From assembly GCA_021030905.1 (NCBI GenBank), contig JAGFMI010000002.1, positions 2,666,001 to 2,730,000 of the forward strand: a DNA stretch of 64,000 bases, in the 5' to 3' direction. Position numbers and translations under genes: made by a program. How positions within the stretch are numbered: position 1 is the stretch's first letter; each line of letters begins with the position of its first letter. Shown one piece after another: positions 12,272 through 43,099 of this stretch. The notes beneath the pieces were generated by a model. It was not told where the DNA came from. It searched no databases and saw nothing but the letters and a program-made list of their open reading frames with translations. Source of the stretch: Pyrenula massariospora. Its lineage: Eukaryota; Ascomycota; Eurotiomycetes; Pyrenulales; Pyrenulaceae.

Positions 12272-12724
12272 CTACGGCATTGGCGGATCCTCTTCGATAC
12301 AGGCGATCAGAGACCATTCCATTAGAGCCGCTTCTCTGTGGGGCTTTGCGCCCTCGGTGTATGCCGCGCTGGACTGGTACCTAGCATATTCGGCAAAGCT
12401 TGCGTACTGTCTCACCGCCACCAAGTCCCAGGGAGTGTCGTTCTGGGCGAGAAGGTTCGTGACCGAAGTTGAATACAGGCGATACTCGCCAGGCTTGATG
12501 CCGACCTGCTTTGCAGCATCGGCACCAGCGGGTATATAGCGACTGTAAAAAGCTTGACGTCCCGTCACAGGTTCGAGAGAAGCGAACGGCGACGACGAGG
12601 GATAGCTGGCCTTGTCATTGAAGCGTAGCATGTGAATGACTACCACCTGCTTGTCTTCCGGGAAGCGGTGCAACAAGGCAAGATAATCCTTGGGTTTGAT
12701 GGGAGTGTGGCCGGAGTCTGTCAT
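12272..12724 (-). CDS. Small DUF1330-like (dimeric alpha/beta barrel) protein
   Basis: This single exon encodes 150 residues if the ATG at 12724 is used. The frame is open further upstream, but that extension is translated from a 31-nt tandem duplication and is probably not coding. The pattern VVVIHMLRFNDKA near the N-terminus, GRQAFYSRYI, then WDLVAVRQYASFAEYARYQ and AALMEWSLIAC at the C-terminus matches the ferredoxin-like alpha/beta barrel layout of DUF1330 and related small enzymes. Such proteins often act as monooxygenases, cyclases or decomposing enzymes in fungal pathways, but no catalytic residue is diagnostic here. It is divergent from the methyltransferase gene at 13365, sharing a 640-nt promoter region, which suggests joint regulation. 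Its role in the cluster is inferred. Confidence 0.72.
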   Translation of the reverse strand: MTDSGHTPIKPKDYLALLHRFPEDKQVVVIHMLRFNDKASYPSSSPFASLEPVTGRQAFYSRYIPAGADAAKQVGIKPGEYRLYSTSVTNLLAQNDTPWDLVAVRQYASFAEYARYQSSAAYTEGAKPHREAALMEWSLIACIEEDPPMP

Positions 12725-12731
12725 CGGTACG

Positions 12732-12793
12732 GTGTCCCGCGCTCGTGTGAAATGAGGAACGTGTGTCCCGCGCTTGTGTGAAATGGGGAACGT
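12732..12793. repeat. 31-nt direct tandem duplication
   Basis: Two adjacent copies of 31 nt (12732-12762 and 12763-12793) begin GTGTCCCGCGCT and differ at two positions. They lie in the presumed leader of the DUF1330-like gene and read through in frame if translated. Confidence 0.9.
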
Positions 12794-12917
12794 AATAGTG
12801 GGCGCTTCTTGGTGCCGTGTTCTCAAGAACAGAAGTCAATATATCAACCGACGACTCTATCTATTTTAAGCTTCTCGGGTTTACTCCTGCACGGGTACTA
12901 CACATTTCCGCATCGTC

Positions 12918-12927
12918 CACTATCGGA
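12918..12927 (+). promoter_or_regulatory. Shared CACTATCGG word, copy 1
   Basis: The word CACTATCGGA lies in the divergent promoter. Related words occur at 13141-13150 and 15364-15373, all within upstream regions of cluster genes. It could be a binding site of the cluster regulator; this is a pattern match only. Confidence 0.3.
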
Positions 12928-13140
12928 AGTTTCAGCCACTTACTATCTCTTGATGCGCCGCCGCCTTTCCTATTAAGGGGGAGGCCTAGCTACGTGCGCA
13001 TGCGGATTCTCTCTTTGCGAAAACCTAGGATAATTAGTTATGCTTTAATATAGCAGGTTTCCGAGTTCAAAGATTATTGCGACTACATATAGATCCGATG
13101 GAAAAATGTAAATTCCCCGACTGGGGAAAATGCTGTGTTC

Positions 13141-13150
13141 TACTATCGGA
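13141..13150 (+). promoter_or_regulatory. Shared TACTATCGG word, copy 2
   Basis: TACTATCGGA is followed directly by GTCTTCGG, so TCGG triplets are repeated at short spacing about 220 nt before the methyltransferase start. TCG/CGG spacing of this type is what Zn2Cys6 dimers prefer. Confidence 0.3.
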
Positions 13151-13364
13151 GTCTTCGGTTCCCGAGGGTTTTGACCGATCCGAATACTCAATTGCCCAAA
13201 GCGAAGTGAGACGATCTTCTCTCCCAAGCAAAAGCCTTATCCCTTCTCCGCGGAGCGCGTCTATTCACAAAGCGATGAACCAGTCTCATCTCTGACCCAT
13301 CCGTTAAGTTCTGTGTTTTGACCATACTTACTTCCGACACATTCGTCCCTCACCTCATGCCGGA

Positions 13365-14405
13365 ATGGGTTCGAACGCCCAGAACCCTGATTTGGAGGTT
13401 ACCAACATCTTCAACTCATATGTTGCCGCCGTGGCCATTGGTGCTGCTTGGGAAGTCGGGCTCCTCGATGAAGTGAGAAGGCAAGATGAGGTGGACATCA
13501 ACGACTATGCCGCGGAGCACGATCTTGACAGACTCTCGATACAAGGCCTTGCTTCATCCCTGTCCGTGGTTGACATCATACAACGCCAGAAGGACATCAT
13601 CAAGCGAGGCCAGCTCTTTGAAAGTGCCTATCGGACCAAGGGTCTTTTTCACTGGCTTGCTCTCGGCTCTGGACCCCTATTCTCACGCATGCACTGTATC
13701 CTGCGCAACAAGAATCGGATCGGGGATTACTATTCACGGGACTCTGCTGCCATAATCTATGCTTGTCGTGATGCGAACGTCCAATACTTCGACCCAGCCT
13801 TTCTGAATGCCATCAACTCATCTGATTGCGAGCCACACTCTGTCGTGGACCTGGGAAGTGGAAGTGGTGAGAGGTTGATGCAACTATTAGATCGCTATCC
13901 TCAGAGCACTGGCATCGGCATCGATATTGCTGGACCCGCGATAGAAGTCGCTATGGATGAAGCTGTGAGGCGCGGGTATGGCGGTCGCCTGTCGTTTTTC
14001 CAAGGCGACGTCCGTGAATTGGACTATCGGGACGAGTTCTCTCAGGTTGATCTTCTGACATCATTTCTGATGGGTCACGACTTTTGGCCTCGAGAAAGGT
14101 GTGTTACATCACTACGGCGACTTCTGGCGGCATTTCCCAACGTTCGACGGTTCTTCCTGTGCGACACTATGAAAATCTTGATCGATAACCCGCAAACGAA
14201 ACAAGTTGTCGAAGAGAAGAACATGCCCATTTTTACCTTGGGATTTGAATTCGGACATGCTTTGATGGGCATCTCCCTGCCTACGGTAGAGGACTGGGAA
14301 GGCGTGTTCGAAGAGGGAGGTTGGCATTGTATCAAGCAACACCATATGATGCCGCCTTCTCTTTCCATCATCTTCGAGTTGCAACCAGCCTCGCTCGCTC
14401 GATAG
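13365..14405 (+). CDS. Putative 2-oxo-acid C-methyltransferase (MppJ/MrsA-like)
   Basis: This intronless gene encodes 346 residues. The N-terminal helical part (about 1-150) is followed by a class I SAM-binding domain with motif I VVDLGSGSGER (160-170) and the acidic end of strand 2, GIGIDIAG. Two further blocks are striking: MGHDFWP (His238, Asp239) and GFEFGHALMG (His298). In bacterial phenylpyruvate C3-methyltransferase MppJ, and by relation 2-ketoarginine methyltransferase MrsA, a His-Asp pair and a later His at nearly the same positions hold a non-haem iron that binds the 2-oxo acid (from memory of the family). I infer methylation of the beta carbon of a 2-oxo acid. The next gene, on the same strand, is an amino-acid dehydrogenase, which would make or consume such an acid. 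A generic O-methyltransferase is the main alternative. Confidence 0.78.
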   Translation: MGSNAQNPDLEVTNIFNSYVAAVAIGAAWEVGLLDEVRRQDEVDINDYAAEHDLDRLSIQGLASSLSVVDIIQRQKDIIKRGQLFESAYRTKGLFHWLALGSGPLFSRMHCILRNKNRIGDYYSRDSAAIIYACRDANVQYFDPAFLNAINSSDCEPHSVVDLGSGSGERLMQLLDRYPQSTGIGIDIAGPAIEVAMDEAVRRGYGGRLSFFQGDVRELDYRDEFSQVDLLTSFLMGHDFWPRERCVTSLRRLLAAFPNVRRFFLCDTMKILIDNPQTKQVVEEKNMPIFTLGFEFGHALMGISLPTVEDWEGVFEEGGWHCIKQHHMMPPSLSIIFELQPASLAR

Positions 14406-15729
14406 TGACGAATCGATTGATGCCGAGGTGAAATGTGGCGAAAGATCCCTTATTGGGCAATCTTCTTTTCGTTATGGAGAGTAAGCCTGATCTGACTTGA
14501 AATAAAATGCCCGTTCAACCAGAAGATGTTATTTCCAGACAATGCACTGCGATTTCTTTTTGCGTTTGCCAGTGAAGTGGTTGCATATTTGACTATTATC
14601 GAACCTTTACTGTCTAATCGCCTTGTTTGCGAGAATCTCGTAATTTATATTGGATCCAAGGGGACCACGAGATCGAATTTAGATGTATGCATTGCTAATG
14701 TACATATTATACCTAATTGTCGGTAATAACGATTATAGCATGCAGTGATGTAAATAGCCGAGGACTCCGTGATTTGTGACACTGAGTCCCCGCCTGAAGC
14801 ATGCTTACAAGAAACTTGCTGGTGCTGCTGACTTCGACCCAATACAAGACGAAGAAAGAGTTTCCATGGCTCGCAACACTTACTTCTTCCTAGTTTACCT
14901 AGAGAATACTGGAAAACCTGTCTAAGCCATGACTCCTGTCGTGTCATGATATAAGAGGTGATAGTGGTAAGGGGTTATTGCGGTGTTGATCAACCCTTGA
15001 CCGAAGATCTCCATAAACCACTGGATCTCCAGCCACCTTATTTGTGGCTTAGTGTGTCAACTCAAATCAGTTAGTATGCCCTTACGTGTGCTACAGTGTG
15101 ACATGTCATACCAATTAGAATGTCGACCATTGCGTCCTCAACCACGTAGAGAGATGGTGCTGAGAATCGTAGAGCTGAAACAGCACTCAAACCTTCGTAC
15201 GACCATCACGCGCTAGGCTGAATCTAAGCCTTGCGCACAATAAGGATCATCCAATCGAATCACCATGTAGTCTTCCATATGGATCTTCGCAAAGTCAGTG
15301 CAAAGAGGTATTAGCCATACATAGTAGACCCTACACATTATTTCAACCGCAATCACTTGTCTTCACTATCGGTCACTTCGGAGCATTCGCCACTTCGGAG
15401 TATCGGTCGTTTCGTAGTGTGATGGTGGCTCTGACCATCGGCTTTTTTTCGCATGGAACACTCGGTAGCCGATAGGAGTGTATAGGGGACATGAGGTCAA
15501 TGGCCAGTAAGCGCGTTTCAGGTGGTGAATGTTTTACCGATATCAGTGCACGAATGTCTTTTATATAAGTTTGTGTACAGTCTACTACAGCTTTCCCATT
15601 CGACTTACACCGCAAGCCCTACCAATGCCCAGGATCTGATTTCCCGCGCAATTCTATTCCATCTATAATTGCGTAGTATACGCGTCATATACGTACAAGG
15701 TCTCGTCTAGTCCGGCTACTTTCACCATC
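14406..15729. other. Intergenic region before the dehydrogenase-VOC gene
   Basis: The region has no coding signal. It is AT-rich around 14500-14740. Close to the downstream gene, at 15364-15410, lie CACTATCGG and two CACTTCGGAG words 16 nt apart, followed by TATCGGTCG. Confidence 0.5.
15364..15410 (+). promoter_or_regulatory. Cluster of TCGG words before the dehydrogenase gene
   Basis: CACTATCGGT (15364-15373) is followed by CACTTCGGAG twice and TATCGGTCG. The spacing of TCG/CGG words resembles Zn2Cys6 sites, and the first word is shared with the divergent promoter at 12.9-13.2 kb. Binding is not shown by sequence alone. Confidence 0.35.
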
Positions 15730-18153
15730 ATGGAACCCAGCTTTGGTTTAGGCAACCAAACTGAAAATTCTGCCGATGCAAACCACGTCTCAAGCAACAT
15801 ACCGCCCTATAAAGTGGAAAATGGGCGCTGTGTCTGGCATTGGCGAGATGAGAATACCGAGGCAGAAGGTTGGATAGTCATTGACGCTCCGGTCCCTACC
15901 CTTGCAGGGGGTGGGTTGTTCTTGCAGGGGCAGGCAACACTGATGGAAGTATGTGATGTGGCTAGCGCCATGAGCGCAAAGCTGGCTGTATCGTGCACGC
16001 GCCAGGTTGTTGGTGCTAAAGGAGGCATTCGGTTCCCTCACTGTGATCCACGGGCTGGTGGCGTTCTGGAAAGATTCATACGCGACAACGCTGCGATCAT
16101 ATCGCAATACTGGGGAACTGGTGGAGATCTCAACACAAACCATGCAACTATCGATGAACACTGCAGAGTATATTGCCCTACGTCGAGTAGCACGGCCCTC
16201 TCGATATTACCGCGGAGTCTAAATCCTCTCGGATCGGCCAATGTGGATGTGGCCGGTCTTCTCCAAGAAAGAGTAGAAAAGATTGGATGGCCTGTAAGAG
16301 ACTTTTCTGCTGGATATGTCATGGCCACCACCCTGAAGAAGCTCTTATTGCGTACGAACCCAACTATCCTCGGCCGGGCCCGCTTAGCATTACAAGGTTT
16401 CGGCTGTGTGGGCGCTGGTTTCGCCGAGGCAGTTCAGAAAATGGGAATTGGCCGGGTAGTGGCTATTTCCAGCCAATATGGGTTCATCGAGGACAGCGTA
16501 GGGATCGACTGCACGGCCGTCGAGGCACTTCGCCGGCACAAAAGGGAGAGTGGCACAAGTACAGAGTTCGAACTCAATTGCTTGGAAGCTGGCCTCGCGG
16601 AATGCCAGCTAGGTTCTGACCTGTACATCCGGCGCAAGGACGGTTCAACAGAAGAGGATCACCTTGTCGATTTCTTGTCGGCGGCAAGGGCGGAGATATT
16701 CGTTCCGTGCGCAGGGCGCTACATCATTACTTCTAACGTGATTAATACTCTTATACGCAAGACCTTCACGGGCGTGCCTCCTAACTCTCGGTTCATACTA
16801 TCCGGCTCCAACAGCGCTTTCAATCTAGCGGAACCGAAGGCTTCCTACCTGTCGCAGCTAGACGATTATTCGATCAAGATGCTGCCAGAGTGGGTGAGCA
16901 ACTCGGGCACTTCAAACCTTTTCATGCGAGCTTGTAGTGGCCTCGCCCTCAAGGGTCATGCTAGTGCCAATCTCAGAGCCTGCGCAGATGATACGAATGC
17001 ATTCATAGACACTATTTTCTCCAGAGTTGGAGACGATCTAAGCTCCACATCATTGTGGAAAGTCGCCGAGGAGGTTGCGACCGCAAGAAGAGAGGCAGGC
17101 GTTTCGAATCTGCTGGGTGTCGAGAAGTTGACCCATTTGACTCTCATGACACCTGACGGGCAGCGATCCAGTCAAGTCTTTCAGAAAATTTGCGGTGCCA
17201 TACACGTCCAGCACAGCAAGAAACTTCGTTTGCCCGGCTCGGGGGATCCGACTTTGGCAATCGCTCAACTTCCACTACAAGAACGAGAGCCAGGGACTAT
17301 TGGTCTTATCATGCACTTCTCTGTGTACAATTTGATGAAAGCACGCCAGTGTCTCGCATTCGAAGGCGTCGGATTCGAGGAAGAGGTGTTGGCGGATGGA
17401 TCTACAGAGCTCGCACTCACAGGCGAAGAGGCTGGCTATCATATCAAGTTGCGTCAAACTCCAACTGGAAGATGGTTCTCGCTGGACTCTGAAGACACCA
17501 CAACCGCGACAATATCAATTGCTGGTGCCGTGAAGCAACTTGATCACTACGCCGCAGTCATGCCGAATGCCGCCGCAGCCAGGATCTTCCACGAACGCTT
17601 CCTAGGATTCAAATTGATCCGAGAAATGACTCTGAATGTTGGTTCGGCGCCAGAAGGCGAAGTAGACTCATTGATGTTTATTATGGGGCTCCCTCATGAT
17701 AGCAAGCGATCTGTGGTCCTCACCGAGGGCCTTCTGCCACAGTGTCTTTTCTCAAAGATGCTCTCAAAGAAGACCCACCCATTTGTTCATCATGTGGCTT
17801 TCGAGATTGAGGACGTCGAAACTGCATTCTCTGCGGTTAGGAGTGCCGGCTGGGCCACGACCCAAGAAAGCACCAGCCTCGACCTAGCCAGTGGGCTCCG
17901 CCAGTTTTTCTTGAAAGACGACGGTGTTGGTTGCAGCTTGGAGATGATCCAGCGCACTGAGAATTCTCCTGCGCCACCTGACGCTCAAGTAACAAACACG
18001 ACACCGCTGGTACCCATGCGTCCCGACGATGCGCACCCACAGGTTGATGCCTGTCTCCCCAAAAGACAGTCGAAAGGTGCCAGCGGCCAAGGGGACTATC
18101 GCGAGGGTAACATTATCTTTCTAGCCAAGGGACTGGATGCCGTCCTTGAGTAG
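15730..18153 (+). CDS. Fusion of ELFV-type amino-acid dehydrogenase and VOC domain
   Basis: This intronless gene encodes 807 residues. Residues about 60-145 form the dimerisation/substrate domain of Glu/Leu/Phe/Val dehydrogenases, with the lysine-bearing GAKGGIR at 95-101 and GTGGDLNTN at 129-137 in place of the usual catalytic Asp loop. Residues about 190-470 form the NAD(P) domain: ALQGFGCVGAGF (220-231) has the dinucleotide glycines, and CAGRYIITSNV and ILSGSNSAF correspond to family blocks. After a divergent linker, about 600-742 is a vicinal-oxygen-chelate domain: LDHY (His606), VHHVAFEIED (His687/688) and SLEMI (Glu738) supply the two-His-one-Glu metal site of HPPD, glyoxalase and epimerase enzymes. 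The N-terminal half would interconvert an amino acid and its 2-oxo acid; the C-terminal half could oxidise, isomerise or epimerise that acid. Residues 745-807 look disordered. Substrate is unknown. Confidence 0.85.
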   Translation: MEPSFGLGNQTENSADANHVSSNIPPYKVENGRCVWHWRDENTEAEGWIVIDAPVPTLAGGGLFLQGQATLMEVCDVASAMSAKLAVSCTRQVVGAKGGIRFPHCDPRAGGVLERFIRDNAAIISQYWGTGGDLNTNHATIDEHCRVYCPTSSSTALSILPRSLNPLGSANVDVAGLLQERVEKIGWPVRDFSAGYVMATTLKKLLLRTNPTILGRARLALQGFGCVGAGFAEAVQKMGIGRVVAISSQYGFIEDSVGIDCTAVEALRRHKRESGTSTEFELNCLEAGLAECQLGSDLYIRRKDGSTEEDHLVDFLSAARAEIFVPCAGRYIITSNVINTLIRKTFTGVPPNSRFILSGSNSAFNLAEPKASYLSQLDDYSIKMLPEWVSNSGTSNLFMRACSGLALKGHASANLRACADDTNAFIDTIFSRVGDDLSSTSLWKVAEEVATARREAGVSNLLGVEKLTHLTLMTPDGQRSSQVFQKICGAIHVQHSKKLRLPGSGDPTLAIAQLPLQEREPGTIGLIMHFSVYNLMKARQCLAFEGVGFEEEVLADGSTELALTGEEAGYHIKLRQTPTGRWFSLDSEDTTTATISIAGAVKQLDHYAAVMPNAAAARIFHERFLGFKLIREMTLNVGSAPEGEVDSLMFIMGLPHDSKRSVVLTEGLLPQCLFSKMLSKKTHPFVHHVAFEIEDVETAFSAVRSAGWATTQESTSLDLASGLRQFFLKDDGVGCSLEMIQRTENSPAPPDAQVTNTTPLVPMRPDDAHPQVDACLPKRQSKGASGQGDYREGNIIFLAKGLDAVLE

Positions 18154-18770
18154 TCCCCAAGAAAATTGCTGGTCTTTCTTGTTGGTTGATGCGCTGCGTT
18201 TATATACTACCATAGTAAGCAACTTGATCTGAACGAGGTTTAGCACTACGTCTTCGTCCTGACCTGACACTGTACTGGAGAGGATACGGTACATAGATAG
18301 TGTGAATACACTGCCTGTTGGCTACGCCTTGTTTACCTGCTAGTATAACCGATTACCTATATGAGTTTATACGAATAGGTTAATATAAAAGCTTATTTGC
18401 TAAAATGTATTAGATTAATAACATATGCATGTGTTAATCAAGTACTTAAATCTGACTTTTAACGTCTAATAGTTGAGGTAGGTAGGTAGGTTGGCTAGTC
18501 AGCCTGGTGGGTCACCTAACAGGTGGGTTACATAGTATTATTTATTGCCTTAAATCGGTTGCGTTTGTGAATCGGCAACCTGGCAGTACTTTTGGTACCA
18601 TTTTGCGACGATGCTTCCAATGAAAATCGTCAAAAACGTGCGTGACTCACTTAGCAGTACTCTCAGGTAGATAGGTGTGAAGTCCTCAGAGTTGTTTTCC
18701 GAGGAGTCGAAACGACCTAAATGTGGAAGGGTCGATGATTCTACTATCTAGACATTACGATTGTTAACGA
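18154..18770. other. AT-rich intergenic region before the LINE fragment
   Basis: A very AT-rich stretch (18340-18480) is followed by GGTAGGTAGGTAGG-type repeats (18476-18492). It looks like transposon-derived or RIP-affected DNA; no gene was recognised. Confidence 0.5.
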
Positions 18771-19817
18771 ATGAACTGCGCCTTAGATCAACTAGTACCA
18801 AAGAGGAATAGCGTAAGCAAACGGAGCAAACACACAAACCACCCCAGATTGGTCATACCACGCTACTCGCCAGGCTCAAGGACAAACCCCACTGAGGGCA
18901 GGTCGAAGAAAACGGCGGCTGAGGACTTCATAGGGTGGCTGGGCACCTTGACGGGCAAAGAACTTGGGGTATACACGGATGGCTCGAAGGGCAACGATGG
19001 CCTGGGCTACGGCTACGCCATATTTCGAGGGAATAAGCGGATAGACGACCACTCGGTAGTCTTCGACGCAGAAGCAGTAGGGGCATGGAGGGGCCTAGAG
19101 AGCGCCCTGGGGCTAGTGGATTATGCTGCGGCCACTCTACCAACAGTTTGGGCATGCCTGGACAACATGGCAGTAATATGGTGTCTGCGAGGGAATGCCT
19201 CAGTGAACTCACAGTGGGTATTCCTCAGATTCCACGAAGCGGCCGACAGACACGATATACGTGTCAAGTGGTGCCCTGGATATATGAGCATAGAAGGCAA
19301 CGAGCTAGCGGGCGAGCTGGCAAAGGATGGCGCAAGGGCGACAAAAGACCCAGAGGCGGGCCCTACGGTAGCTGGCAACAAGTTACACGCACGACTCAGA
19401 TTCAGGAAGTCCTATCACCACCATTGGGCAGCGGTTCGACGGTGACTATCTGCCAGATACAAATAATGGGAGTTAGGCTACGAAATGCAATGCCCACCTG
19501 AACTGGAGGTGCTTGGAAGGAAAGATTTGCACCTCTGCTTAACTGGGGACTTTGTGTGGTATCACAAGAAGTACAAGCACGGCGACGCAAAGACGACTTG
19601 CTCTCGCGGGAGAATTAAAGGACCGGAGCACCTAGTGCACTGCCCAAGGACGCTGGCATTATTCCGGCAGTGGCAATGGCCAGCGGATAGATTGAAGCTT
19701 TGGCCTATTACGACGGAGGACAAGCGACGCTACGTGGAAGACCTACTCGACGCCCCAGAGGCTTTCAAGGACTTCCTAGCTGTTACCGGCTTTTACACGC
19801 GCATATGCACTCGATAG
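18771..19817 (+). mobile_element. Disabled 3' fragment of a LINE (non-LTR retrotransposon)
   Basis: One frame encodes the RNase H domain and C-terminal zinc-knuckle tail of fungal Tad/I-type LINEs. YTDGSKG, FDAEAVGAW and CLDNMAVIW carry the first three acidic RNase H residues; the fourth motif reads GNELAGELAK, so the usual Asp is Gly. Two in-frame stops follow (TGA at 19443-19445, then TAA near 19463), after which the same frame continues as a tail with KHGDAKTTCSRGRIKGPEHLVHCP, a CCHC knuckle whose second Cys is Arg. Reverse transcriptase and endonuclease are absent, so the copy is 5'-truncated and inactive. C-to-T changes at the stops would fit RIP or ordinary decay. It separates the dehydrogenase gene from the second methyltransferase. 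Confidence 0.85.
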
Positions 19818-20719
19818 GAAGCGTACTGAACCCTGATGATGACCCGGCCCACCCTGAAACGGCGCGTCCACAAGACATTGGCTGTTAGGCGCACGACTGG
19901 CGCGCCGAGAGCCCCTCAAGTCTAAAGTCTTCACAGGCGGTCTGAGAAGACTACCCTGTAATGACCTCAGGCACATACGGCGGGAGGAAACTCCCCTTTT
20001 CAGTTCGTACACTGGCGGGCTATGCCCCAAGTGCTGATAGGCTTGTCGAGGCCTTTAGCTAAGCCGCTGGCACGGCGAGGCTCGGAGGAATAGGAAAACC
20101 ATTAAAACATCTCTCTTGTAGCGCACTTGCGCGTGACACAGGACTTGCGTCCTTCGGAAGCTTGGCAACTATGCACACTAGACACTGGCTGACGGCCCAG
20201 ATATTTCATAACCCACTCGAGGAATAGCTGAATGACTTCAACTGGCGGAAGGAGTTTAGTGAGAATGGACTGAAGTCCACACGCCGTAAGGCAGGGTTTG
20301 CTGAACGACCTTCTGTACGGTAGTATAGATAGCAGGCTCAGCACGCTCCATGGACCCCATGAGAGGTCTGACAACGCTGCTATGCAGCGATGTCCTGAGC
20401 GTCGTAGATTACAACAACAAAGAAACGACCCAAACGAGCAAAACCACCGAACGGACCGAACCTACCAAATCTACGAAAACGACGAGAATTACCGAACCGA
20501 CCGTACCGAAATGACACAAAACTAGCAAAACAATCGGGCTATTTCACAGTGCCATGTAACTGATACTATACGGGGGCATGAGGAAACGTACAACACATAT
20601 AATCCTCCTCATTGCCAAGTTTATCCAAAGTCGATTGCTCTCATATAAACCCCATCGTTACACTCGTCTCGCATTCTGAACCTACGCACATACAGTCCCG
20701 GCGTCTACTGCTTTTCGTA
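19818..20719. other. LINE 3' flank and promoter of the second methyltransferase
   Basis: The first part probably includes the LINE 3' untranslated region. A repeat-like AC/GA-rich stretch with several ACCGAAC words lies at 20411-20530. A short promoter and leader precede the ATG at 20720. Confidence 0.45.
20411..20530. repeat. ACCGAAC-rich imperfect repeat
   Basis: Several imperfect ACCGAACSGACCG words occur in a low-complexity, almost T-free strand. This is non-coding and lies between the LINE fragment and the methyltransferase. Confidence 0.5.
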
Positions 20720-21535
20720 ATGACATCTGAAAAGCAGATTGGGCTTGGTCTCGACAGCCCGGAGTTAGCAAGTCATTATGATATGGCAAGCCAGTTTCAG
20801 TACGAGGCCGGACAGACGCTTGCCAAGAAGTTGGATATCACCGCGGGAAAAGAGGTCCTGGACGTCGGTTGCGGGACTGGCTTGTTAACTAGTCACATCG
20901 CAGCAGTGGTGGGCACAACGGGTCGTGCCGTGGGAATCGACCCACTCGAAACGCGCGTCAAACTTGCCAGGGGGAGGAGTTCGACGGATGCGGAGTTTGC
21001 CGTCGGGAGCGTGTATGACCTCTCCAGTTTTGCGGCAAACAGTTTTGATTTTGTTATTCTGAACTACGTGCTTCACTGGGTTGAAGACAAGACACTTGCT
21101 CTGAAAGAGATACACCGTGTCCTGCGACCTCAGGGACGTCTTGGTATCGCAGGCGGCTCCGGGGAGCATGTCCCTCCATTCCTGCAAATCAGATCGTTGA
21201 TACTGTCCAGGAAGCACTATAGCCTCGATGCAGAAGAGGCCATGCACGGCGCCCCAAGACATGATGGGCGCAAAGATATGGAAGATCTGTTGAGGCACGT
21301 TGGGTTTGACAGTGCCTCGATCTTCAATTTTGAGCAAGCATTAGTCACAGAAACTGCGGCAGAGATGATAGACTGGGTTGAATCGAGCTCGTTTGGAAAT
21401 TATTTCGGCCACCTTCCGGAACCTCTACGTCGGCGAGCGAGGGACGAAGCAGCAGTAGAGTTCGAGAAAATGAGGACTGATGGCGTGATTCGCATGCAAC
21501 TTACGTCCATGGTCGTGGTGGCGGTGAAGCCGTAG
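20720..21535 (+). CDS. Class I SAM-dependent methyltransferase (type 11 like)
   Basis: This intronless gene encodes 271 residues from the ATG at 20720; the frame upstream to 20612 opens only from a TTG. Motif I is EVLDVGCGTGLL (about 45-56), the strand-2 acid is in AVGIDPLETR, and the post-motif block FDFVILNYVLHWVED and RVLRPQGRLGIAGG are typical of methyltransferase-11 enzymes that modify small molecules in fungal metabolite clusters. It resembles UbiE/TdiE-type enzymes rather than protein or RNA methyltransferases. It lies between the dehydrogenase fusion and a Zn2Cys6 regulator, so it may act late in the same pathway as an O-, N- or C-methyltransferase. Substrate cannot be predicted. Confidence 0.85.
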   Translation: MTSEKQIGLGLDSPELASHYDMASQFQYEAGQTLAKKLDITAGKEVLDVGCGTGLLTSHIAAVVGTTGRAVGIDPLETRVKLARGRSSTDAEFAVGSVYDLSSFAANSFDFVILNYVLHWVEDKTLALKEIHRVLRPQGRLGIAGGSGEHVPPFLQIRSLILSRKHYSLDAEEAMHGAPRHDGRKDMEDLLRHVGFDSASIFNFEQALVTETAAEMIDWVESSSFGNYFGHLPEPLRRRARDEAAVEFEKMRTDGVIRMQLTSMVVVAVKP

Positions 21536-21944
21536 ACTACCGATAGTTGCTCTGACGTGTTGTTAAGAAACTGAAACAAATACGAGCGAGGCATCCAACT
21601 ACACCGGAGGTGATGACCGGTAAATTGTCGGCGGTGGGCACGGCCCGAAGCACGGCGACCACATGCCGAATATTCATGTGAAGTCAGGAAATAGAGTTCC
21701 CGATAATTAGAGTTTCTGATCTAAGGTGAGAGTGGTATTTGCTACTACTCTCACCTTCGACCCTAGAAAGGTGCCATCCTGGGCAATGCTTCCGGCGATA
21801 GTAATGGAAAGGCGGTCCGGCAAGCCAGAGTGACTAGCCACGTGGGATTTGTATTATTCTTATATAAAGCTATCGCATCTATGGAGTTCATACTCACAGG
21901 ATTGGTATTAGAGTTACCTCGGTTAATGCCAAAGTCAATCAGCA
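21536..21944. other. Intergenic region before the Zn2Cys6 gene
   Basis: A short inverted repeat around GAGAGTGGTA...TACTACTCTC lies at about 21727-21752, and a TATATAAAG box at about 21859-21867 is a plausible promoter element of the regulator gene at 21945. Confidence 0.4.
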
Positions 21945-23222
21945 ATGGCGAGGCTGTTGAGCCCGTCGGACTCAGACCACTGGGAATCCAGGCGCTTTCC
22001 AGCTTGCGACCGGTGTCGAAATCAGAAGCTCCGGTGTCTGCGGCAGAGAGGGAGGAATCTCTCCTTCCCCTGCTCGAGATGTGAACGAGCGCAGACCGAC
22101 TGCGTTGTCAGCCTGCGAAAACGGCCTGGCCGACGTTCTGGCAAAAGACGCGATCGCGAACAGTCTACAATACCAGGTCAGACTGAGAATACTGAACTGC
22201 ATCCTGCTTTGCCGCCTGGACAGCATTGGGAGAGCAACGTCGACGAGAGCTGGTTCAACATTATCGGTGCCATAGAAGGTAACATCGCTCCTACGCCTGA
22301 AAACCCTCATGACAGTTTTCGGGATACTTCACTCGAAGCCAATGCTTCGATCGGTTTTGACTACTCTTGGCCTGATAACAACCATGATCCACTGGATTCC
22401 TCAGCTCTTGATTTCAGTTCGGATGAGAGGCATACCTCGAAGGCCCCCATGTTGTTATATCCAGAAGGCGTCGGTCTTAGAGATGCGTATTCCGATGAGC
22501 GCACAGATCCGAGTGCTCAATTGTTCCAGATTCCGCACAAGCTCTCAATGCAATTACAAAGATTTCAGTCGAGACCATGGGACATCACGATATACCTCAA
22601 ACTGGAACAGACACCTGGTGATGAGACGGAATCAAGTACCTCCAAATCCAGAGAAGACCACGCTCTCATAAGCATCTTTAATATACTATCGGAGCTGAAG
22701 GGTGTCTTCACCGAGTTAGCCGCCACCCACAACTGTCGCAATTTGTCAACCTCGACAAGTCGTCAGGGGTTCACGAATATCTCATGTTTGCTGGCTGCTT
22801 TAGCATGCTATTTGCAGATCTTGGCCCTTTACGATTGCGTCGTCACTCATGTCATTGAGCAAGTGACCAGCAGTTCTGCCACAAGAGCCTTTGTGTTGGA
22901 TTCGACGCCAAGGTTTTCCATCGGAGGCATCATTGTTCCGCCATCGAAGAATCTTTTGGGTCGTTCGTTAATACAGGTATTGGAACAAAACATCCACCCA
23001 CTTGAAACCGTATTAGCACTCCCAGCTGATTACCGGGTATCCAGATTCGGAAATGACGATGTCACACTTGATGGCAGCAGATTGTTGAAGGAAGAGCATG
23101 GAGCAGCATTATTTGATTCTTTTAGTCAACTCGAGTCCGCAAGAACTGGTAATTCAAGCATTAAAGGATTAGTAAGAGATCTTAAGGAGAAAATGGCGCA
23201 CATTGAGGAGCTTGGCTCATGA
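21945..23222 (+). CDS. AflR-like Zn2Cys6 transcription factor
   Basis: This intronless gene encodes 425 residues, starting AGCAATGGCGAGG. A binuclear zinc cluster lies at residues 21-53: Cys21, 24, 31, 43, 46 and 53 (CDRCRNQKLRC, then CSRCERAQTDC), followed by a basic region RKRPGRRSGKRRDRE. The middle and C-terminal parts contain LLAALACYLQILALYDCVVTHV and RFSIGGIIVP, which match the layout of the AflR-type C-terminal domain of in-cluster activators of fungal secondary metabolism. The most likely job is pathway-specific activator of the genes between 12 and 21.5 kb; the TCGG words in their promoters would be candidate sites. The last 27 codons are duplicated downstream (see repeat 23136-23599). 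Confidence 0.87.
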   Translation: MARLLSPSDSDHWESRRFPACDRCRNQKLRCLRQRGRNLSFPCSRCERAQTDCVVSLRKRPGRRSGKRRDREQSTIPGQTENTELHPALPPGQHWESNVDESWFNIIGAIEGNIAPTPENPHDSFRDTSLEANASIGFDYSWPDNNHDPLDSSALDFSSDERHTSKAPMLLYPEGVGLRDAYSDERTDPSAQLFQIPHKLSMQLQRFQSRPWDITIYLKLEQTPGDETESSTSKSREDHALISIFNILSELKGVFTELAATHNCRNLSTSTSRQGFTNISCLLAALACYLQILALYDCVVTHVIEQVTSSSATRAFVLDSTPRFSIGGIIVPPSKNLLGRSLIQVLEQNIHPLETVLALPADYRVSRFGNDDVTLDGSRLLKEEHGAALFDSFSQLESARTGNSSIKGLVRDLKEKMAHIEELGS

Positions 23223-23599
23223 CTTCCAAATTGGCGGTAAGGGGTGAAATCGAAGTCCGAACCACCTAACCGGAAGTAGCAGCGATATGTTTTGGGCACA
23301 TTATTATGTAGAGTACATGAATTGTGTCAAAATCAGCGCTTACTGTACGCTTCTACTTCAGGTTAGGTGGTCCGGGCTTCGATTTCACCCCCTTAGCGGC
23401 TTCAGTTTGTTACCGATGCCAAACCGCCGTCGCCGAGTTACATCCGCGGGAACTGGCAATTCAAGCATTAAAGGATTAATAAGAGATCTTAAGGAGAAAA
23501 TGATGCACATTGAGGAGCTTAATATATGACTTTTGAATTAACGGCTTCAGTTTGTCACCGATGCCGAACCGCCATCGCCGAGCTATGTCCGCATGAAAT
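23136..23599 (+). repeat. Duplicated 3' end of the Zn2Cys6 gene with tandem unit
   Basis: The last about 85 nt of the regulator CDS (23136-23222) recur at 23443-23529, including the frame KGLIRDLKEKMMHIEEL and a TGA. Around them a CGGCTTCAGTTTGT...CCGAGTTACATCCGC segment at 23397-23450 recurs at 23542-23590. A unit of about 145 nt has therefore been partly repeated in tandem. The downstream copy is non-coding debris. Confidence 0.85.
23239..23394. repeat. Inverted repeat, 33-nt arms
   Basis: Arm 1 (23239-23271, starting AAGGGGTGAAATCG) and arm 2 (23361-23394, ending GATTTCACCCCCTT) are complementary with two substitutions and one inserted base. They enclose 89 nt. The outer 22 nt of arm 1 also occur inside the C2H2 gene at 1332-1353. 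Confidence 0.85.
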
Positions 23600-23920
23600 C
23601 TGTGCTACTCTGTTAGCCTGTTGAGGCCAGTAATGTCTCATTACAGTTTGACTCCGCTCTTTGATGGAGACCAGCGCCTCCAATCGCAGCCGTTGCTCTT
23701 AACTTGGAGTAGCTCCGTACGCTGAACACTCAACCTCATATCCAATCTTGTAGCTACCGTCGATTGCGTTTGCATGAATTCGCCCCACGCCAGTAGCTCC
23801 CGCATATCCGACATACTTAACCCGAGTTCAATGTATCCCATCGGCTGGTAAGAATGTCGACGGGGTTTTGCGCCTGTCATAAACCTTAATGCCCCCCTGC
23901 GTCGATCCTTGGCGGATCCA

Positions 23921-24076
23921 CCTATCGCATCGACTGGTAACAATGTCGACGGTTTTTTTATTGGTCTGCCTCGGTCCGTGCCATCCCAAATTCTGTTCGT
24001 GCCAACCCGGCTCAGGGATGGCACGGACCGAGGCAGACTTATCAAAAAACCGTCGACATTGTTACCAGCCGATAGG
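23921..24076. mobile_element. MITE-like palindrome with 54-nt arms
   Basis: Arms 23934-23987 and 24015-24068 are complementary at 51 of 54 positions and enclose a 27-nt spacer. The arm begins CTGGTAACAATGTCGACGG and ends in GTGCCATCCC; CCTATCG flanks both sides. A partial third copy (CATCGGCTGGTAAGAATGTCGACGG) lies at about 23839-23863. This is the shape of a small non-autonomous DNA transposon or of two transposon ends brought together. No target-site duplication was established. Confidence 0.75.
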
Positions 24077-25905
24077 ATACTTCCCAAGCAGGTACACAAG
24101 CAAGGACATCCCTAACCTATTCTCTTTTAGATTTAAGTTCACCTTAGCACCACCCTGCCGCTCCGCTGAAAGTAACAGTGTCTCACCATAATTTAGCTCT
24201 AACCCGAAGGCCAGCACTCTCTGATCGCGACCGTAACACTCTACTTAGCATGGATTCTTTGCCGCTCTGTCAGTCCGCGGAGAACCATGATTTGCTAAAT
24301 ACGCCGCTGTCATTATTGATTATATGTCTAGACTCTGCGTCGCTCCGCCGGAGGCTGTCGCTCAGTGGCTGATAGAATGGGCCAATGGGCTTCTATTGTA
24401 AGGGCTCGCCATCGAGTCGAGTCGTTCGTAAGGGTTGAGAGGTTCAATTATTGGCCAACGGCGTCATTAAACCCATTTCAATATTAAAATTCGCCTGCTT
24501 CGCACTCGCGCTGAACGCGAAAGAGTACGGGAAATGATCGGTGCTGAAGTTCCCGTTTATAGTAGAAGAGCCATAAAAAAACTGAATACCTACAATGAGA
24601 GTATAATCCACAGTGGCTGTATAATTCGCTCTATGTCTTCTAGAAAATATCTCGGTAAATGAGAGGTTAAAAGACTATAAAGAATGGGACAGTTTCTGCG
24701 ACTTTTCGTGAAGTGTGGTCGATTTGGTCATCCATAACGTGGGGTGCCAAGAAATGCACCAGAAATGCTTATGACATGAGCTAGAAAAAAGAACTTGATG
24801 CTGATTTTTAGTGTGTAAGCGTACTTTGAAGGATGAATAGGAGAAAAAAAGGCACGCATCATTGTCTCATAATGACATGTCGTATCCAATGCTTTCCCCT
24901 AATCGAATCTCCATCTATCTATTGGCGTTGTCCCGTAGACAAAGCCGTATCTCTAATCTCACAAGCCATATCACTGTTCGAGTCGTACTGGTGACGTGTT
25001 AAAACTTGAACACATTTGCGCTGCTTTACTGGCTACTGTCGTCAAGCTCATTGGAACGGCTGGCACGGAAGCAAAAGTTTCTTGTTGGCACACTTATTAA
25101 AGCTCCCATAGGCTAGACGCTATGTGCTCGAATAATCAAAGCTCCACGGTTTTGCAACGGGTTTGTGCTGCAGGCTGTAGCACACTCTCTTAAGCGACAT
25201 TATCGAGCTCGCCCGAACAGTCAGAGCCCGGACAACGAGAAAAGTCATCCAAGTCTGGAGGAACATAAGATTAGGTCAAGTCCTAAACATGAATTCCAAA
25301 GTATACCACAAAGAGAAGGCCGCGAAATAATTAGGGGATTGCCACACTTCCAATCGCCATGAAAGCGACGTGATCCTACCGACAGCATGAGATCCTGCAT
25401 CGCTGTCAAACAAAAGTTCCAAAGTATGTTGCCTGTGAGGTTAGCGCCATACTGTAAAAGGCAACCAGCTCTCTGCCAAGAACAGTCGGTGTTTGCCCGA
25501 ACCCAAAGCTTCAGGTCACAGGGTCACTCTTTTTCCGAGATAAGCACCAGAGAGGATCTCTATCAATCCAATTCTGCTTTCTCGAACCCCTATCGATGAC
25601 GGAGACCGGTATATTAGGAGCGCCTACCATGAGCTCGCTTACATCTGCGGCTGGGATCGGTGTCCCGCTCTACATTAGCGCCATCAGCTGGCGTCTTCTC
25701 CAGACCGCGGTCTTTAAACCACCAGCTTGTACTCGTACTTAGGAAGGTTTGTACATACTTCTAGACTTCTAAGGACTAATAGTGGTATGTGGCTAACTGC
25801 GATTGCCTTGCGTGCTTTGTGACTGCCCTCCTGCTCTGTCTGCAGCCGACCTCTAAGGTGCTCTCCCACACACATCGCTAAGCTCTCTCCCCTCATCCCA
25901 ATCCA

Positions 25906-39130: not shown

Positions 39131-40508
39131 TTAAAGCTTCGGCTGCAGAGCCGGCCGAATTGCAGCATATTCCTCGGATTGTCCCAGCCTCCAGGAGACG
39201 GCATCGCCCCAATTCGAATCACCGTCATCAGCCTTAGGATTCTTCCAACACCATCGCGCTACTGGCTGATGGCCATCCGCCGCCTCAAGCAGGTTCTTTA
39301 CCCAACTCCCTACAATGGGGAACAACTTGAAACCATGGCCAGAGTCCCCAGATACGAGGACGACCGATGAAGAGGTTTCAGGAACATAGTCAATAATGAA
39401 ATCGGAATCTCTCGTGTCAGCAAACCAACACAGCGACTTTTCCACTAATGGTCGGCTCGCAAGTGATGGAAGGGTCTGTGCCAGGAGTTTCCGGACCTGT
39501 TGCTCATCATGGGGAGGCATGAATGCGCTCTCTTCTAAGGTCTCAGGCGCATGCGAAACCCCAGTGTTGGGGTCGGTGTTGACATACCCGGCTCCCATGG
39601 GACACAGCTTGAGAAGATTTGTCTTCGGGTCCGGCTCAAAGAAAAACCCAAGGTCACGGGCGTACGTCACAGGGATGCCACGCAGGGCGGACGTTTCCTC
39701 GTCCGTGAGCCGGACATGTGCTACAGACCAGGACTTGGCCACAAGCTGCTTACCGACCTCTGGCACGAGCCTCGACGATCCTGCACCGGCAGCGACAATC
39801 ACCAGCTTGGCCGGATGAAAACGGCTCGTCTTGGACCTCACGCCACTGCTCTTCTTTCCCTGCGGGCTGTTCTCATAGACGACTTCCGACACAGCACCCT
39901 CGTCGCCTAGCACGAACTTAACGCCCTTCGCCACTATCGCCTGATAGAGCCCTTTGAGCGCATTGCCAGAATGTGCGTAGCCATCGAGGCGGTTGAAATA
40001 GCCCCTCCATCCAGGAATTGGGGATTCCTTATACTGCCAGACAAGATCGCGGATATCCTCATGCCCACGGATGCGCAACGTCTTCCTGGCCACCTGCGGG
40101 TGCCGCTCCGCCGCGGTCTGGAATCTTTTCAACGTATCAACCGCCCTTTGCGAGGCCCCCCCAGACACACAGTGCAGAAAGCCGACTTGGTGGAAGTGTG
40201 GTGCGAAAAGAGGAGTTTGCCAGGCAGCAATAGCTTTCTACATAGATACGAATTAGTACCGCAGCGGGTCACCCAACTGACAAGGACGGTTTTCGCACAA
40301 GGGACAAATCCGTGTAGAACGGGTCTTCGTATTCCGCGCGGACGATCTTGTTCAGGTCATTTGCGGCCGAGAATCGAGGGGGGATCTTGGAATCTTTGTC
40401 GAAGATTGTCATATTCTTGAAGCCGGCGGTGCATAGATGCAGCGCCGTTGAGAGGCCGAAGGCCCCTCCCCCTACGATTATGATCGGGTCGGTCTTTAAG
40501 AGGCCCAT
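39131..40508 (-). CDS. FAD amine oxidase (sarcosine/fructosyl-amino-acid oxidase family)
   Basis: Two exons (40508-40299 and 40237-39131) separated by a 61-nt intron give 438 residues. The N-terminus PIIIVGGGAFGLSTALHL (8-25) is the dinucleotide-binding motif, followed by SAANDLNKIVRAEYEDPFY, a signature of the fungal fructosyl-amino-acid, saccharopine and pipecolate oxidase branch. SLCWFADTRDSDFIIDY contains Cys340 at the place of the cysteine that holds FAD covalently in monomeric sarcosine oxidase, and SGDSGHGFKLFPIVG follows as in the family. It should oxidise a secondary amine or N-substituted amino acid to an imine with release of hydrogen peroxide. The end RPALQPKL is not a clear peroxisomal signal, but a PTS1-like SKL variant is possible. 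It adjoins the proline cluster, so an imino-acid substrate is worth considering. Confidence 0.9.
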
Positions 40509-41165
40509 GGCAGATGATGCGGTGTTTGAGTATCTAGGTTGTCCAGAATTCTAGAAGTTTGGAGACTAGGATTGCACGAGCTCCGACGTTGGATAGCATG
40601 GATTCAACAGTCTTCAAGTTCCTATTATGACTGTATCCACAATTATCAATGTCGGCCCTTTAGAGCTTGAACCGTGAAGAGCATGATGCGATGCCGCCCC
40701 GAGACTATCCCGAATTTCTAGATTTTAGCATATCGCAGCCTTCAAGCTCAAGGGCGTAGACCTTTCACTGGATGATACGAAAATCCCATTCTGGCAAGCT
40801 TCTTCGTTGATATGCATCGCCGGGCTACTGTCGGTGCTACGGCTGACCTCCCGAGAGTGCAAGGGTATTCATCGGAAGCGCTTCCGTAGCTTGTTGGCGA
40901 CGAGGTTTACCGCGCCACTGAAAGATAGCTCTGATGATACCGAACAGCGACCGAGTAGATCCTGATGATTGTGGCTTCACTCGATTAGTCAATTCGATAT
41001 GTTTACGGCCACCTCATAGAGCGCCTACCCTCCCACGCGGGAAATAATTCACGATGATGTGGGCAGAAATAAACAGTTTGTGATTTGTAGGTATATATTA
41101 TGGTCATTGTGTACCTGTAACCTTTTTTACCCTGATCAACATCCATCTGCGCACGATAAAGCGGT
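40509..41165. other. Intergenic region, amine oxidase to P5C dehydrogenase
   Basis: This holds the promoter of the amine oxidase and the 3' flank of prnC. No gene or repeat is recognised. Confidence 0.5.
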
Positions 41166-43099
41166 CTAGTCGTTGCTGGGATATGTGAAACCGCTTGTCA
41201 ACGGGAAGAACTCCTCCTTGATCAATCTGGGACTGGTAAAACGGCGTAACACATCTGAGCTACCCGCCTTGTCGTTTGTACCGCTGGAGCGGGAGCCACC
41301 GAATGACTGCTGGCCAATGAGGGCTGCGGTCGTCTTGCAATCTACACAAACAAACAAGTTAAATCGCAGAACATGGAGGTGGCAGATTAAACAAACTTAC
41401 TGATGTAGAAGTTGCCAGCAGAGTAACGGAGAGAGTCCTCAGCCTGGCGAATCGCAGTGCGGCTGTTGGCAAATATGGCGCCAGTCAGAGCGAAGCCACC
41501 ACCGCTCATATCCACCTTAGCCAGAACAGAATTCCATTCAGAATCAGGATAGACGTAGACGGCCAATACAGGACCAAAGATTTCCTCGTTGAACAGTCGA
41601 TGATCTGGCGAGGAAGCTTGATAAACCGTCGGATGCACATAAAACCCAGTCGAGCCATCGTACGTGCCGCCGGCTAGCAGCTTAAGCGATGGATCTTGGT
41701 TGCTTTGATCAATGACGGACTTGATCTTCTCGAACGACCGGCGGTGAATCACAGGACCCATGAATGCGCCCAAGTCCCTATCAGGACTGCCAATTGTGAT
41801 GTTCCTGACGCCAGCCTTCAAAGCGTCGAGGAACTCTTTCGCACAGGACTCGGGAACGTAGACGCGGGAGGTGGCGGAGCATTTTTGGCCCTGGTACTCA
41901 AAAGCGCCGCGCAAGGTGTGATTTGCAGCGCTGGCGATGTCCGCGGACTGGTGGATGAGTAGAAAGTTCTTCCCACTAGTCTCGCCGACAACACGAGGGA
42001 AGTCACGATACGTCTTACCCGCAATTCCCTCGCCGATCCTACCGTTGAGATCACGGAAGACGTCGGAAGAGCCGACAAAGTTGAGACCGGCAAACTCGCG
42101 ATGGGCGAGTGCGACATCTGTAACTTGTTGGGCGTCTCCGGGCACCAGCTGAATGACATCCGGGGGTAGGCCCGCCTCGAGCAAGATGTTGTAGATAATG
42201 GTGCTGGGGTAGATATTGTACTGCGAAGGCTTCCAGAGGACAACGTTCCCCATCAGTGCTGGTCCAGAGATCAGATTTCCACCGATGGCGGTAAAGTTGA
42301 ATGGGGAGATGGCGTAAACAAACCCTTCAAGAGGGCGATAGTCCAGCCGGCTGTTCGTCTTGTCAACCTTCCTGCTTCATATCCCTCTCCTATATGACGC
42401 TACTTACCTCCACATGCCGTCACTGCCACGGGTAGGCTGACGTCCCAAGATCTCAGCAGCGTAGTTACAGTTGAGGCGGAAAAAATCAGCCAGTTCGGCC
42501 GCAGCATCGATTTCAGCCTGCCAAATGTTCTTGCCCTGGCCCAGCATGGTAGCAGCGATCAAGTCATATCGGTGTTTGGTGGTAACAAGCTCGGCCGCTC
42601 TCAGGAAGATAGCAGCACGGTCCACAAACGGTGTCTCCCGCCAGCTCTTCTTTGCCTTCAAAGCCGAATCAATGGCAGTAGAGACCTGGTCTTTGGATGC
42701 GATCGGGTAATTGGTGAAGGTCGTGGCGTGCTCCGAGGGCATGACCTGGTCCTCATTCTTGTAAACCTTCTGAGAAACGCCATTGTAGACAATTTCGCTC
42801 TTCAGTGGAAGCTGGGAGCGGAGCTTCTTCAATGACGCTTCCAGCTCCTTTCGCTCGAATGAACCAGCCTCGTAGAGAGGCTGTCCCGATCATTGTCAGC
42901 AGTTGTTCTTTTCGCTTCTTCTGGAGATTAAGCTTACGTTTGGTTCATTCCGAGGATCTGGCAGTCTAAAAGGGTATGTGGCATTTCCTCGACGCTGTAG
43001 AGCGACAAAGCCCTGCCTGAGGGGAGAAATACATGGAATACGGGTCAAACCTGGGACTGCTCGAGCGAGACTCAACGCGCAAGCTCCGGCCACCGGCAT
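41166..43099 (-). CDS. prnC: Delta-1-pyrroline-5-carboxylate dehydrogenase, mitochondrial
   Basis: Four exons (43099-42938, 42880-42408, 42350-41401, 41341-41166) give 586 residues. The first exon encodes a basic, acid-free leader (MPVAGACALSLARAVPGLTR) suited to mitochondrial import, then RLPDPRNEPN, the normal start of mature P5C dehydrogenase. EGFVYAISPFNFTAIGGNL, the general base Glu in VVGETSGKNF and the nucleophile Cys in EYQGQKCSATSRVY are all present, as is QQSFGGSRSSGTNDKAG near the C-terminus. The enzyme oxidises glutamate-gamma-semialdehyde to glutamate with NAD, the second step of proline and arginine breakdown. Length matches yeast Put2 and Aspergillus PrnC. It is the last gene of the same-strand proline cluster. 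Confidence 0.96.

Follow-up and report, generated by a model that had tools for sequence, protein, structure and literature searches.

The question raised by this locus is whether a group of neighbouring genes in the fungus Pyrenula massariospora acts as one pathway, and on which compounds. The genes lie at positions 12272–23222 of a 64,000-nucleotide stretch of contig JAGFMI010000002.1 (positions 2,666,001 to 2,730,000; the whole stretch is called the window below), from a genome of 37.8 Mb in 33 contigs. The original prediction, made from the letters of the DNA, had described a pathway built on 2-oxo acids and amino acids, and all six features that it named were found where it had put them: a DUF1330-like open reading frame (ORF), a 2-oxo-acid C-methyltransferase (hereafter MT), an amino-acid dehydrogenase fused to a VOC domain (GDH-VOC), a remnant of a long interspersed nuclear element (LINE), a second methyltransferase and a regulator. 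The pair formed by MT and GDH-VOC recurs in other fungi and looks like a real, largely unstudied pathway. These two proteins may well be the core of a cassette making beta-methylated amino acids or their 2-oxo acids, a reading on which our judgement is evenly balanced.

The MT (METHYLTRANSFERASE; 346 aa, plus strand, 13365–14405) was classified as an MppJ-type 2-oxo-acid C3-methyltransferase from its phmmer match, its conserved residues and its position in trees. Residues 11–340 align with residues 33–357 of the crystallised MppJ chain, the N-terminal domain included (phmmer, E 3.3e-108), and the next-best solved enzyme reaches E 1.6e-8 only. MT R125, H238, D239 and H298 correspond to MppJ residues near the iron, and all four are invariant in the 15 aligned rows; we take them to be two iron-binding His, the catalytic Asp and the substrate Arg. 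The alignments show other residues at the Arg and Asp positions of the deposited MppJ variants 4m71 and 4m6x. The best NCBIfam model, 2-ketoarginine methyltransferase, gave 50.7 bits, far below its cut-off of 425 bits. The predicted 2-oxo-acid C-methyltransferase was thus borne out by full-length homology with the iron site kept; grouping with O-methyltransferases that lack this site, which the original prediction had named as grounds for abandoning the idea, was not observed, both iron-site His being present. From this homology we hold with high confidence that the MT would perform MppJ-type chemistry. Its substrate in the pathway is somewhat more probably aromatic than otherwise; the available text of one report describes methylation of alpha-ketoleucine by SgvM, another member of the family, which is therefore not confined to aromatic substrates (PMC10502145).

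Searches for MT relatives found 407 matches, of which the best 120 were listed, many without an organism name; the named organisms among these 120 are all fungal except Kibdelosporangium and Saccharothrix. In a tree of 192 rows, built without two partial bacterial MTs (L073 and L074), 122 rows (among them all named fungi and the two bacteria) form one branch with a support of 100 inside actinobacterial sequences, and the corresponding branch was supported at 100/100 in an IQ-TREE run on 58 of the 192 rows. These trees support an origin of the MT in Actinobacteria and an old acquisition, not one new to P. massariospora: the gene would have been taken up either ahead of the divergence of these fungi or with later passage from one to another. 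For Pyrenophora tritici-repentis, fungal uptake of an MppJ-like gene by transfer has been proposed previously, in the available part of an earlier paper (PMC3612039). The MTs of Kibdelosporangium aridum and Saccharothrix sp. (L004:9995-11029; P0031, P0080) were placed inside the fungal branch, with surrounding supports of 82/69 and 98/87; such a placement would imply that the gene went back from fungi to bacteria, or that a relic of the donor survives. The K. aridum gene adjoins a three-module non-ribosomal peptide synthetase (NRPS). When 73 bacterial MT loci (up to 10 kb on each side, less in short contigs) were searched by tblastn, neither GDH-VOC nor the DUF1330-like protein gave a match at E <= 0.01, and a bacterial source of either gene beside the MTs was rejected. 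Dehydrogenases distantly resembling the first half of GDH-VOC were matched by the family profile in 10 of the 14 of those bacterial genomes searched, partly to the VOC half. The transfer from bacteria that had been suggested for the block is therefore backed, as an old event, for the MT, which nests within Actinobacteria, but not for GDH-VOC, a fungal family absent from the 73 loci.

GDH-VOC (807 aa, plus strand, 15730–18153) carries Pfam matches to ELFV_dehydrog (E 2e-10) and Glyoxalase/VOC (E 8e-6) in a single ORF, in agreement with the predicted amino-acid dehydrogenase–VOC fusion. A dehydrogenase (residues ∼40–450) is followed by a first VOC-like module (∼460–597), a second VOC module (∼600–745) and a conserved C-terminal tail. 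A search in which only the 8000 best candidates were scored found 43 relatives, one of which, P0163, is a dehydrogenase without VOC; 37 of the 43 matches were aligned (alignment A2), and P0163 was excluded from the residue counts and from the 37-row tree. Named relatives belong to Fusarium, Claviceps, Colletotrichum, Pestalotiopsis, Plenodomus, Jaminaea, Parajaminaea, Trametopsis, Basidiobolus and Calcarisporiella. In the dehydrogenase half, K84 (36/36), K97 (37/37), D133 (36/37) and N361 (37/37) are kept across family rows; the first three are presumably the catalytic Lys pair and Asp, and QGFGCVG, which we take to be the dinucleotide-binding motif, completes the features expected of an ELFV dehydrogenase (two Lys, Asp and motif). 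Judged by these positions, the catalytic residues are intact in GDH-VOC, a fungal family. The Lys with which glutamate dehydrogenase 2tmg presumably binds the side-chain carboxylate of its substrate aligns with G60, which is Gly in 35/35 family rows; the mark of a glutamate dehydrogenase is missing and glutamate is therefore disfavoured as substrate. With the N-terminal 170-aa piece alone, 8/8 PDB matches are phenylalanine dehydrogenases, at weak values (E 0.009–0.018), and with the whole-family profile glutamate dehydrogenases come top (5e-19) and phenylalanine dehydrogenase reaches ∼1e-8. PF00144, the beta-lactamase family, is found in two Fusarium GDH-VOC models (P0149, P0151) and in a gene close to the K. 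aridum MT (L004:7613-8932); a hydrolase of this kind is perhaps a recurrent neighbour. The Calcarisporiella model (P0161) runs on into an enoyl-CoA hydratase domain, either a fusion or a gene-model error.

MT and GDH-VOC bear consecutive locus tags in Fusarium sp. NRRL 66182 (F66182_2369/2370), Claviceps maximensis (E4U21_004303/004302) and Fusarium musae (J7337_009244/009243), and a fourth pair (P0016/P0156) lies on contigs of equal size, 71071. The original prediction was to fall if the genes were never co-located or co-expressed in relatives; these two are linked in four other sources. All four linked MTs group with the window MT in one clade of 19 rows (99 in FastTree, 100/98 in IQ-TREE), and the chance that 4 of the 120 listed relatives, drawn at random, all hit the 18 clade mates is ∼4e-4. 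The GDH-VOC tree repeats the order of the MT tree (the window first, next the 71071 pair, followed by branches that hold Colletotrichum or Claviceps plus Fusarium), and a second Fusarium lineage is present in both. For eight MT/GDH-VOC pairs, three of them paired only as same-species sequences, the identity matrices are correlated with r = 0.95, a value reached in 0/5000 permutations. Together these data make it very likely that MT and GDH-VOC would act in one pathway. Some observations pull the other way. Linkage was read from locus tags and matching contig sizes, not from DNA, and species history alone would explain part of the congruence. In the GDH-VOC tree, the proteins of Basidiobolus, Calcarisporiella, Trametopsis and Jaminaea lie outside the clade whose MTs are linked, and among the 120 listed MTs (of 407, many without an organism name) none is named from these four genera, nor from Pestalotiopsis or Plenodomus, which lie inside that clade; the job of the fusion may therefore not always include methylation.

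A common element was also sought in the promoters. The MT shares a bidirectional promoter (12725–13364) with the divergent DUF1330-like gene, in which TATCGG occurs at 12921 and 13144 and CGGAGTCTTCGG at 13147; the GDH-VOC promoter elements (15366–15542) comprise TATCGG at 15367 and 15401 on the plus strand and at 15474 and 15542 on the minus strand, with CGGTCACTTCGG at 15370. Including two half-sites in the promoter of the regulator itself and none before the second methyltransferase, TATCGG occurs 8 times in four promoters (0.55 expected), a count reached by 0/500 dinucleotide shuffles. TATCGG-N4-TTC ranked first in a dyad search of the MT and GDH-VOC promoters, where 4/4 of its window sites lie (0.51 expected in the window); the longer TATCGG-N4-TTCGG has 12 genome sites, 2 of them here (reversed control, 25). 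CGG-N4-TTCGG has 6 window sites (2.3 expected), 4 of them in the promoters of MT, GDH-VOC and the second methyltransferase. For CGGTC-N2-TTCGG, motif searches found 62 sites in the genome (reversed control, 124), of which 3 fall in this block inside 5.1 kb; no other triple in the genome list is so close, and two of the three are in one promoter, that of the second methyltransferase (20447–20503, minus strand). The stretch before this gene has a single genomic match, so a repeat is an improbable source of these sites. CGG direct repeats suit Zn2Cys6 regulators. The controls reduce the weight of these counts: when word choice is allowed for, 16/500 shuffles and 23/1000 random placements score as well; 7/200 random pairs equal or beat the TATCGG-N4-TTC count; 2/100 whole-window shuffles reach 6 CGG-N4-TTCGG sites; and the motif was sharpened after looking, so that the promoter element lends moderate support only. 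At that strength, it appears to link MT, GDH-VOC and the second methyltransferase.

The membership of the other genes is graded differently. The DUF1330-like ORF (150 aa, minus strand, 12272–12724) belongs to an orphan family with 7 relatives of 62–67% identity among ∼5.8 billion proteins; its product is perhaps, as a guess, a cofactor-free isomerase. No Pfam family matched the ORF and PHROGs gave no match; among the 8 family members none matched the Pfam DUF1330 family, and one gave Dabb at E 0.18. The DUF1330-like label had come with the original prediction, and what speaks for it is a weak match of the family profile to RPA0582 (3dca; E 0.0067, two collinear stretches), which we take to be a DUF1330 protein. 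Four of the 7 relatives lie on contigs matching that of a listed MppJ-like MT in exact size (58681, 37981, 21344 and 7559), the MTs belonging to two separate branches; none of these sizes occurs in the GDH-VOC list, so that, as far as these lists go, no source other than the window has all three genes. The co-occurrence of five genes that had been proposed for checking thus came down to a recurrent MT/GDH-VOC pair and a DUF1330-like/MT pair in 4/7 relatives. The second methyltransferase (271 aa, plus strand, 20720–21535) is an S-adenosylmethionine-dependent enzyme of Methyltransf_11 type (PF08241, E 2e-23; best solved relative 3ccf, E 2e-11). It had been counted as part of the cluster; the enzyme is present and its membership, backed by the common promoter element and by position, is less certain and a little more probable than not. 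On the same grounds the Zn2Cys6 transcription factor (425 aa, plus strand, 21945–23222; Zn_clus, PF00172, E 1.2e-5, above cut-off), a candidate pathway regulator, probably belongs. It had been called AflR-like: the Zn2Cys6 domain is there, and no AflR-type Pfam domain was found at E <= 1.

The components of this locus recall several known systems. MppJ itself, the phenylpyruvate C3-methyltransferase of mannopeptimycin synthesis in Streptomyces, is like the MT over its full length and in its iron-site residues; the window MT differs in being fungal, in its dehydrogenase–VOC partner and in the lack of an NRPS among the scanned ORFs. Indeed no polyketide synthase (PKS), NRPS or terpene synthase was found in 27 of the 39 stop-to-stop window ORFs of at least 180 aa, the other 12 falling outside the scan; to this extent the prediction that there are none holds. 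In the Aspergillus candidus unguisin pathway, UgsB supplies an NRPS and, in vitro, methylates phenylpyruvate but leaves Phe unmethylated (PMC12113358). It is likewise a fungal MppJ-like enzyme acting before the amino acid is formed; it differs in its NRPS partner, and the excerpted text mentions no dehydrogenase–VOC partner (PMC12113358). For chaetoglobosin P of Discosia rubi, the C-methyltransferase and class IV aminotransferase encoded by g76 and g77 were proposed to provide beta-methyl-Trp (PMC7399079). Here too a C-methyltransferase stands beside an amino-transferring enzyme, but the latter is an aminotransferase and not a dehydrogenase, a PKS-NRPS is present and the gene table in the excerpted text has no VOC gene (PMC7399079). 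The window MT has a 60% relative in D. rubi, the methyltransferase P0064, which we assume to be encoded by g76. Among bacterial systems, StnR, StnQ1 and StnK3 (MarG, MarI and MarH) carry out transamination, C3 methylation and C3 epimerisation (PMC4742848), a logic of deamination, C3 methylation, epimerisation and re-amination that the window pair would share; their aminotransferase and cupin epimerase are separate proteins, whereas the window has one dehydrogenase–VOC protein with putative roles in both (PMC4742848, available part). A C-methyltransferase beside an amino-group enzyme, the trait of that cassette, is found here and in the three genomes with consecutive tags, with a different class of enzyme. 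The claim that the pathway is undescribed stands in part: fungal beta-methylation is published (PMC12113358) or proposed (PMC7399079), as far as the available texts go, and our literature search found no paper on the dehydrogenase–VOC partner or on the locus tags of the relatives.

From the MT and dehydrogenase families, their intact active residues, the recurrent MT/GDH-VOC linkage and the common promoter element, we infer a substrate, a direction of the dehydrogenase, a VOC chemistry, an end product and a regulation. The dehydrogenase half would form a 2-oxo acid by oxidative deamination of an L-amino acid that is non-acidic and probably aromatic; the MT would hold this 2-oxo acid as an enolate at its iron site and transfer the methyl group to C3. 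The VOC half, as a metal enzyme, would then act on the methylated product at C3, whose hydrogen is acidic; epimerisation there would be the simplest such step, and the dehydrogenase half would re-aminate one epimer. The Stn/Mar logic would be kept, but a dehydrogenase would do the work of the aminotransferase and a VOC domain that of the cupin epimerase; no cupin domain was reported among the scanned window ORFs. The DUF1330-like protein would be an accessory enzyme and the second methyltransferase a possible tailoring enzyme for the product; control of the genes may fall to the Zn2Cys6 protein, acting at CGG-N6-CGG sites. We hold the chances even that the route includes re-amination together with an enolising or epimerising VOC step.

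The VOC half is also where an oxidative route diverges, one in which GDH-VOC would be a deaminating dehydrogenase joined to a dioxygenase like HPPD or hydroxymandelate synthase; deamination, C3 methylation by the MT and oxidative decarboxylation would then yield an atrolactate-type or ring-hydroxylated acid. We consider this rather unlikely, while several features of GDH-VOC speak for it and weigh against epimerisation. The second module keeps a triad (H606, 36/37; H688, 36/36; E738, 35/35) and with it a three-ligand H/H/E site like that of HPPD and hydroxymandelate synthase, without the fourth ligand of the epimerases: methylmalonyl-CoA epimerase presumably binds its metal through His, Gln, His and Glu, and its Gln, constant in 8 aligned epimerases, is V/I/F in 35/35 GDH-VOC rows, as its equally constant Glu of VREAML/VREVML is G/M/S/A in 36/36. 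The layout and tail also resemble HPPD. A profile of 23 HPPD-family proteins from actinobacterial genomes scored 63.5 against the whole VOC half, over 291 columns spanning both modules and the tail (60 column-shuffled profiles, 16.2 ± 2.6, maximum 23.8); family tails resemble the HPPD GFGKGNF tail (mean -2.0 for 34 tails; best mean in 20 shuffles, -4.5); and Gln725, aligned with HPPD LLQIF, is kept in 35/35. On the other side, the Asn of HPPD INEP is replaced by T665 and the Gln of SQIDEYL by V/I/L/Y673; an epimerase profile (8 of 18 loci, picked by regular expression), which scored 58.1 and covers one module only, is slightly better by E-value (3.1e-8 vs 7e-8); splitting the HPPD set turned the best alignments cross-domain, so that the tandem match is fragile; and a tail taken singly says little: 20% of the shuffled ones reach the real median, and the window tail scores -1.3 bits. 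Comparisons with single domains each come out closer to the epimerase (TIGR03081, E 7e-6 vs 0.067 for HPPD; PDB profiles, 1.9e-8 vs 4.7e-5; hhalign with the second module alone, 58.2 vs 54.1, HPPD being best placed there by its own first module). This nearest single-domain match is an enolising enzyme, which speaks for an enolising role of the VOC half. As an identity, methylmalonyl-CoA epimerase was rejected, its Gln and Glu being missing; GDH-VOC also has an extra module and tail. HPPD was not accepted either, for its missing Asn and Gln and the fragile tandem alignment; HPPD and hydroxymandelate synthase also differ from GDH-VOC in that the latter is fused to a dehydrogenase. The residue tests thus reject both names, and with D646, T665 and Q725 constant in every family row with a letter there, the half looks like a VOC subfamily of its own. 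An extradiol dioxygenase was also tried and gave a cross-domain alignment (56.8 for the half, 32.6 for a single domain; control from 5 of 9 loci tried). A canonical HPPD of the genome itself was not found by TIGR01263 or PF14696 in a six-frame search that is blind to introns, so its absence is not established.

The re-amination route further competes with two other accounts. GDH-VOC alone might make or isomerise beta-branched amino acids, for instance Ile to allo-Ile through a 2-oxo intermediate, with the MT adding a methylated substrate in some fungi. The family is indeed wider than its seen link with the MT, the Basidiobolus, Calcarisporiella, Trametopsis and Jaminaea proteins being early branches of the tree; within the derived clade MT and GDH-VOC are inherited together, which points to a joint and dedicated role, and we regard this account as improbable. 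Still less credible, and very doubtful in our judgement, is that the genes are neighbours by chance or serve separate functions. The second methyltransferase and the regulator lie beyond the RNase H remnant (below), apart from the other genes. UgsB and the Discosia MT act in other clusters, with an NRPS or a PKS-NRPS, according to the excerpted texts cited above; yet the MT and GDH-VOC trees agree, the two genes are linked in the four sources, and the DUF1330-like gene lies on contigs size-matched to MTs in 4/7 relatives.

The remnant (18771–19445, plus strand) is a LINE-type RNase H outside the pathway (PF00075, E 1.4e-5, yet 0.1 bit below the Pfam cut-off). The adjoining 19500–20720 has a single match in the genome itself, by a DNA search that skipped very common words, and the LINE is perhaps a lone old relic, as this stretch has no second genomic match. 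The MT, GDH-VOC and DUF1330-like ORFs are uninterrupted and relatives align over their length, which for these three agrees with the description as intact and intronless; MT and GDH-VOC have one match each in their own genome. Upstream of the block lie VPS35 exons and a HET protein gene, and downstream an alcohol dehydrogenase, a DUF1749 gene and then an amino-acid-metabolism group at 39134–49185 (DAO, aldehyde dehydrogenase, pyrroline-5-carboxylate reductase, proline dehydrogenase and amino-acid permease), probably a proline-use cluster. The last 102 nt of the regulator gene are repeated downstream at 84% (23136–23544), flanking an inverted repeat (23241–23284/23348–23391) like a miniature inverted-repeat transposable element, and nested inverted repeats of 65 nt (91%) and 38 nt (89%) at 23833–24080 may be another small element.

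We propose tentatively, with somewhat less than even confidence, that GDH-VOC founds a new bifunctional class, in which dehydrogenation and VOC chemistry on the resulting 2-oxo acid occur in one chain, and that together with a C3-methyltransferase of bacterial origin it provides a PKS- and NRPS-free fungal route to free stereodefined beta-methyl amino acids or, through oxidative decarboxylation, to tertiary alpha-hydroxy acids. Neither of these uses of a dehydrogenase–VOC fusion was found in the literature. Beta-methyl amino acids are valued building blocks, whose (2S,3S) forms need three separate bacterial proteins in the described system (PMC4742848, available part). If the proposal is true, the recurrent fungal pair would need only two polypeptides for its route, which would be driven by a dehydrogenase and depend on NAD(P)H. 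The proposal would also give a role to a fusion protein of Fusarium, Claviceps and Colletotrichum on which we found no study, and it would show a transferred bacterial enzyme joined to a fungal one.

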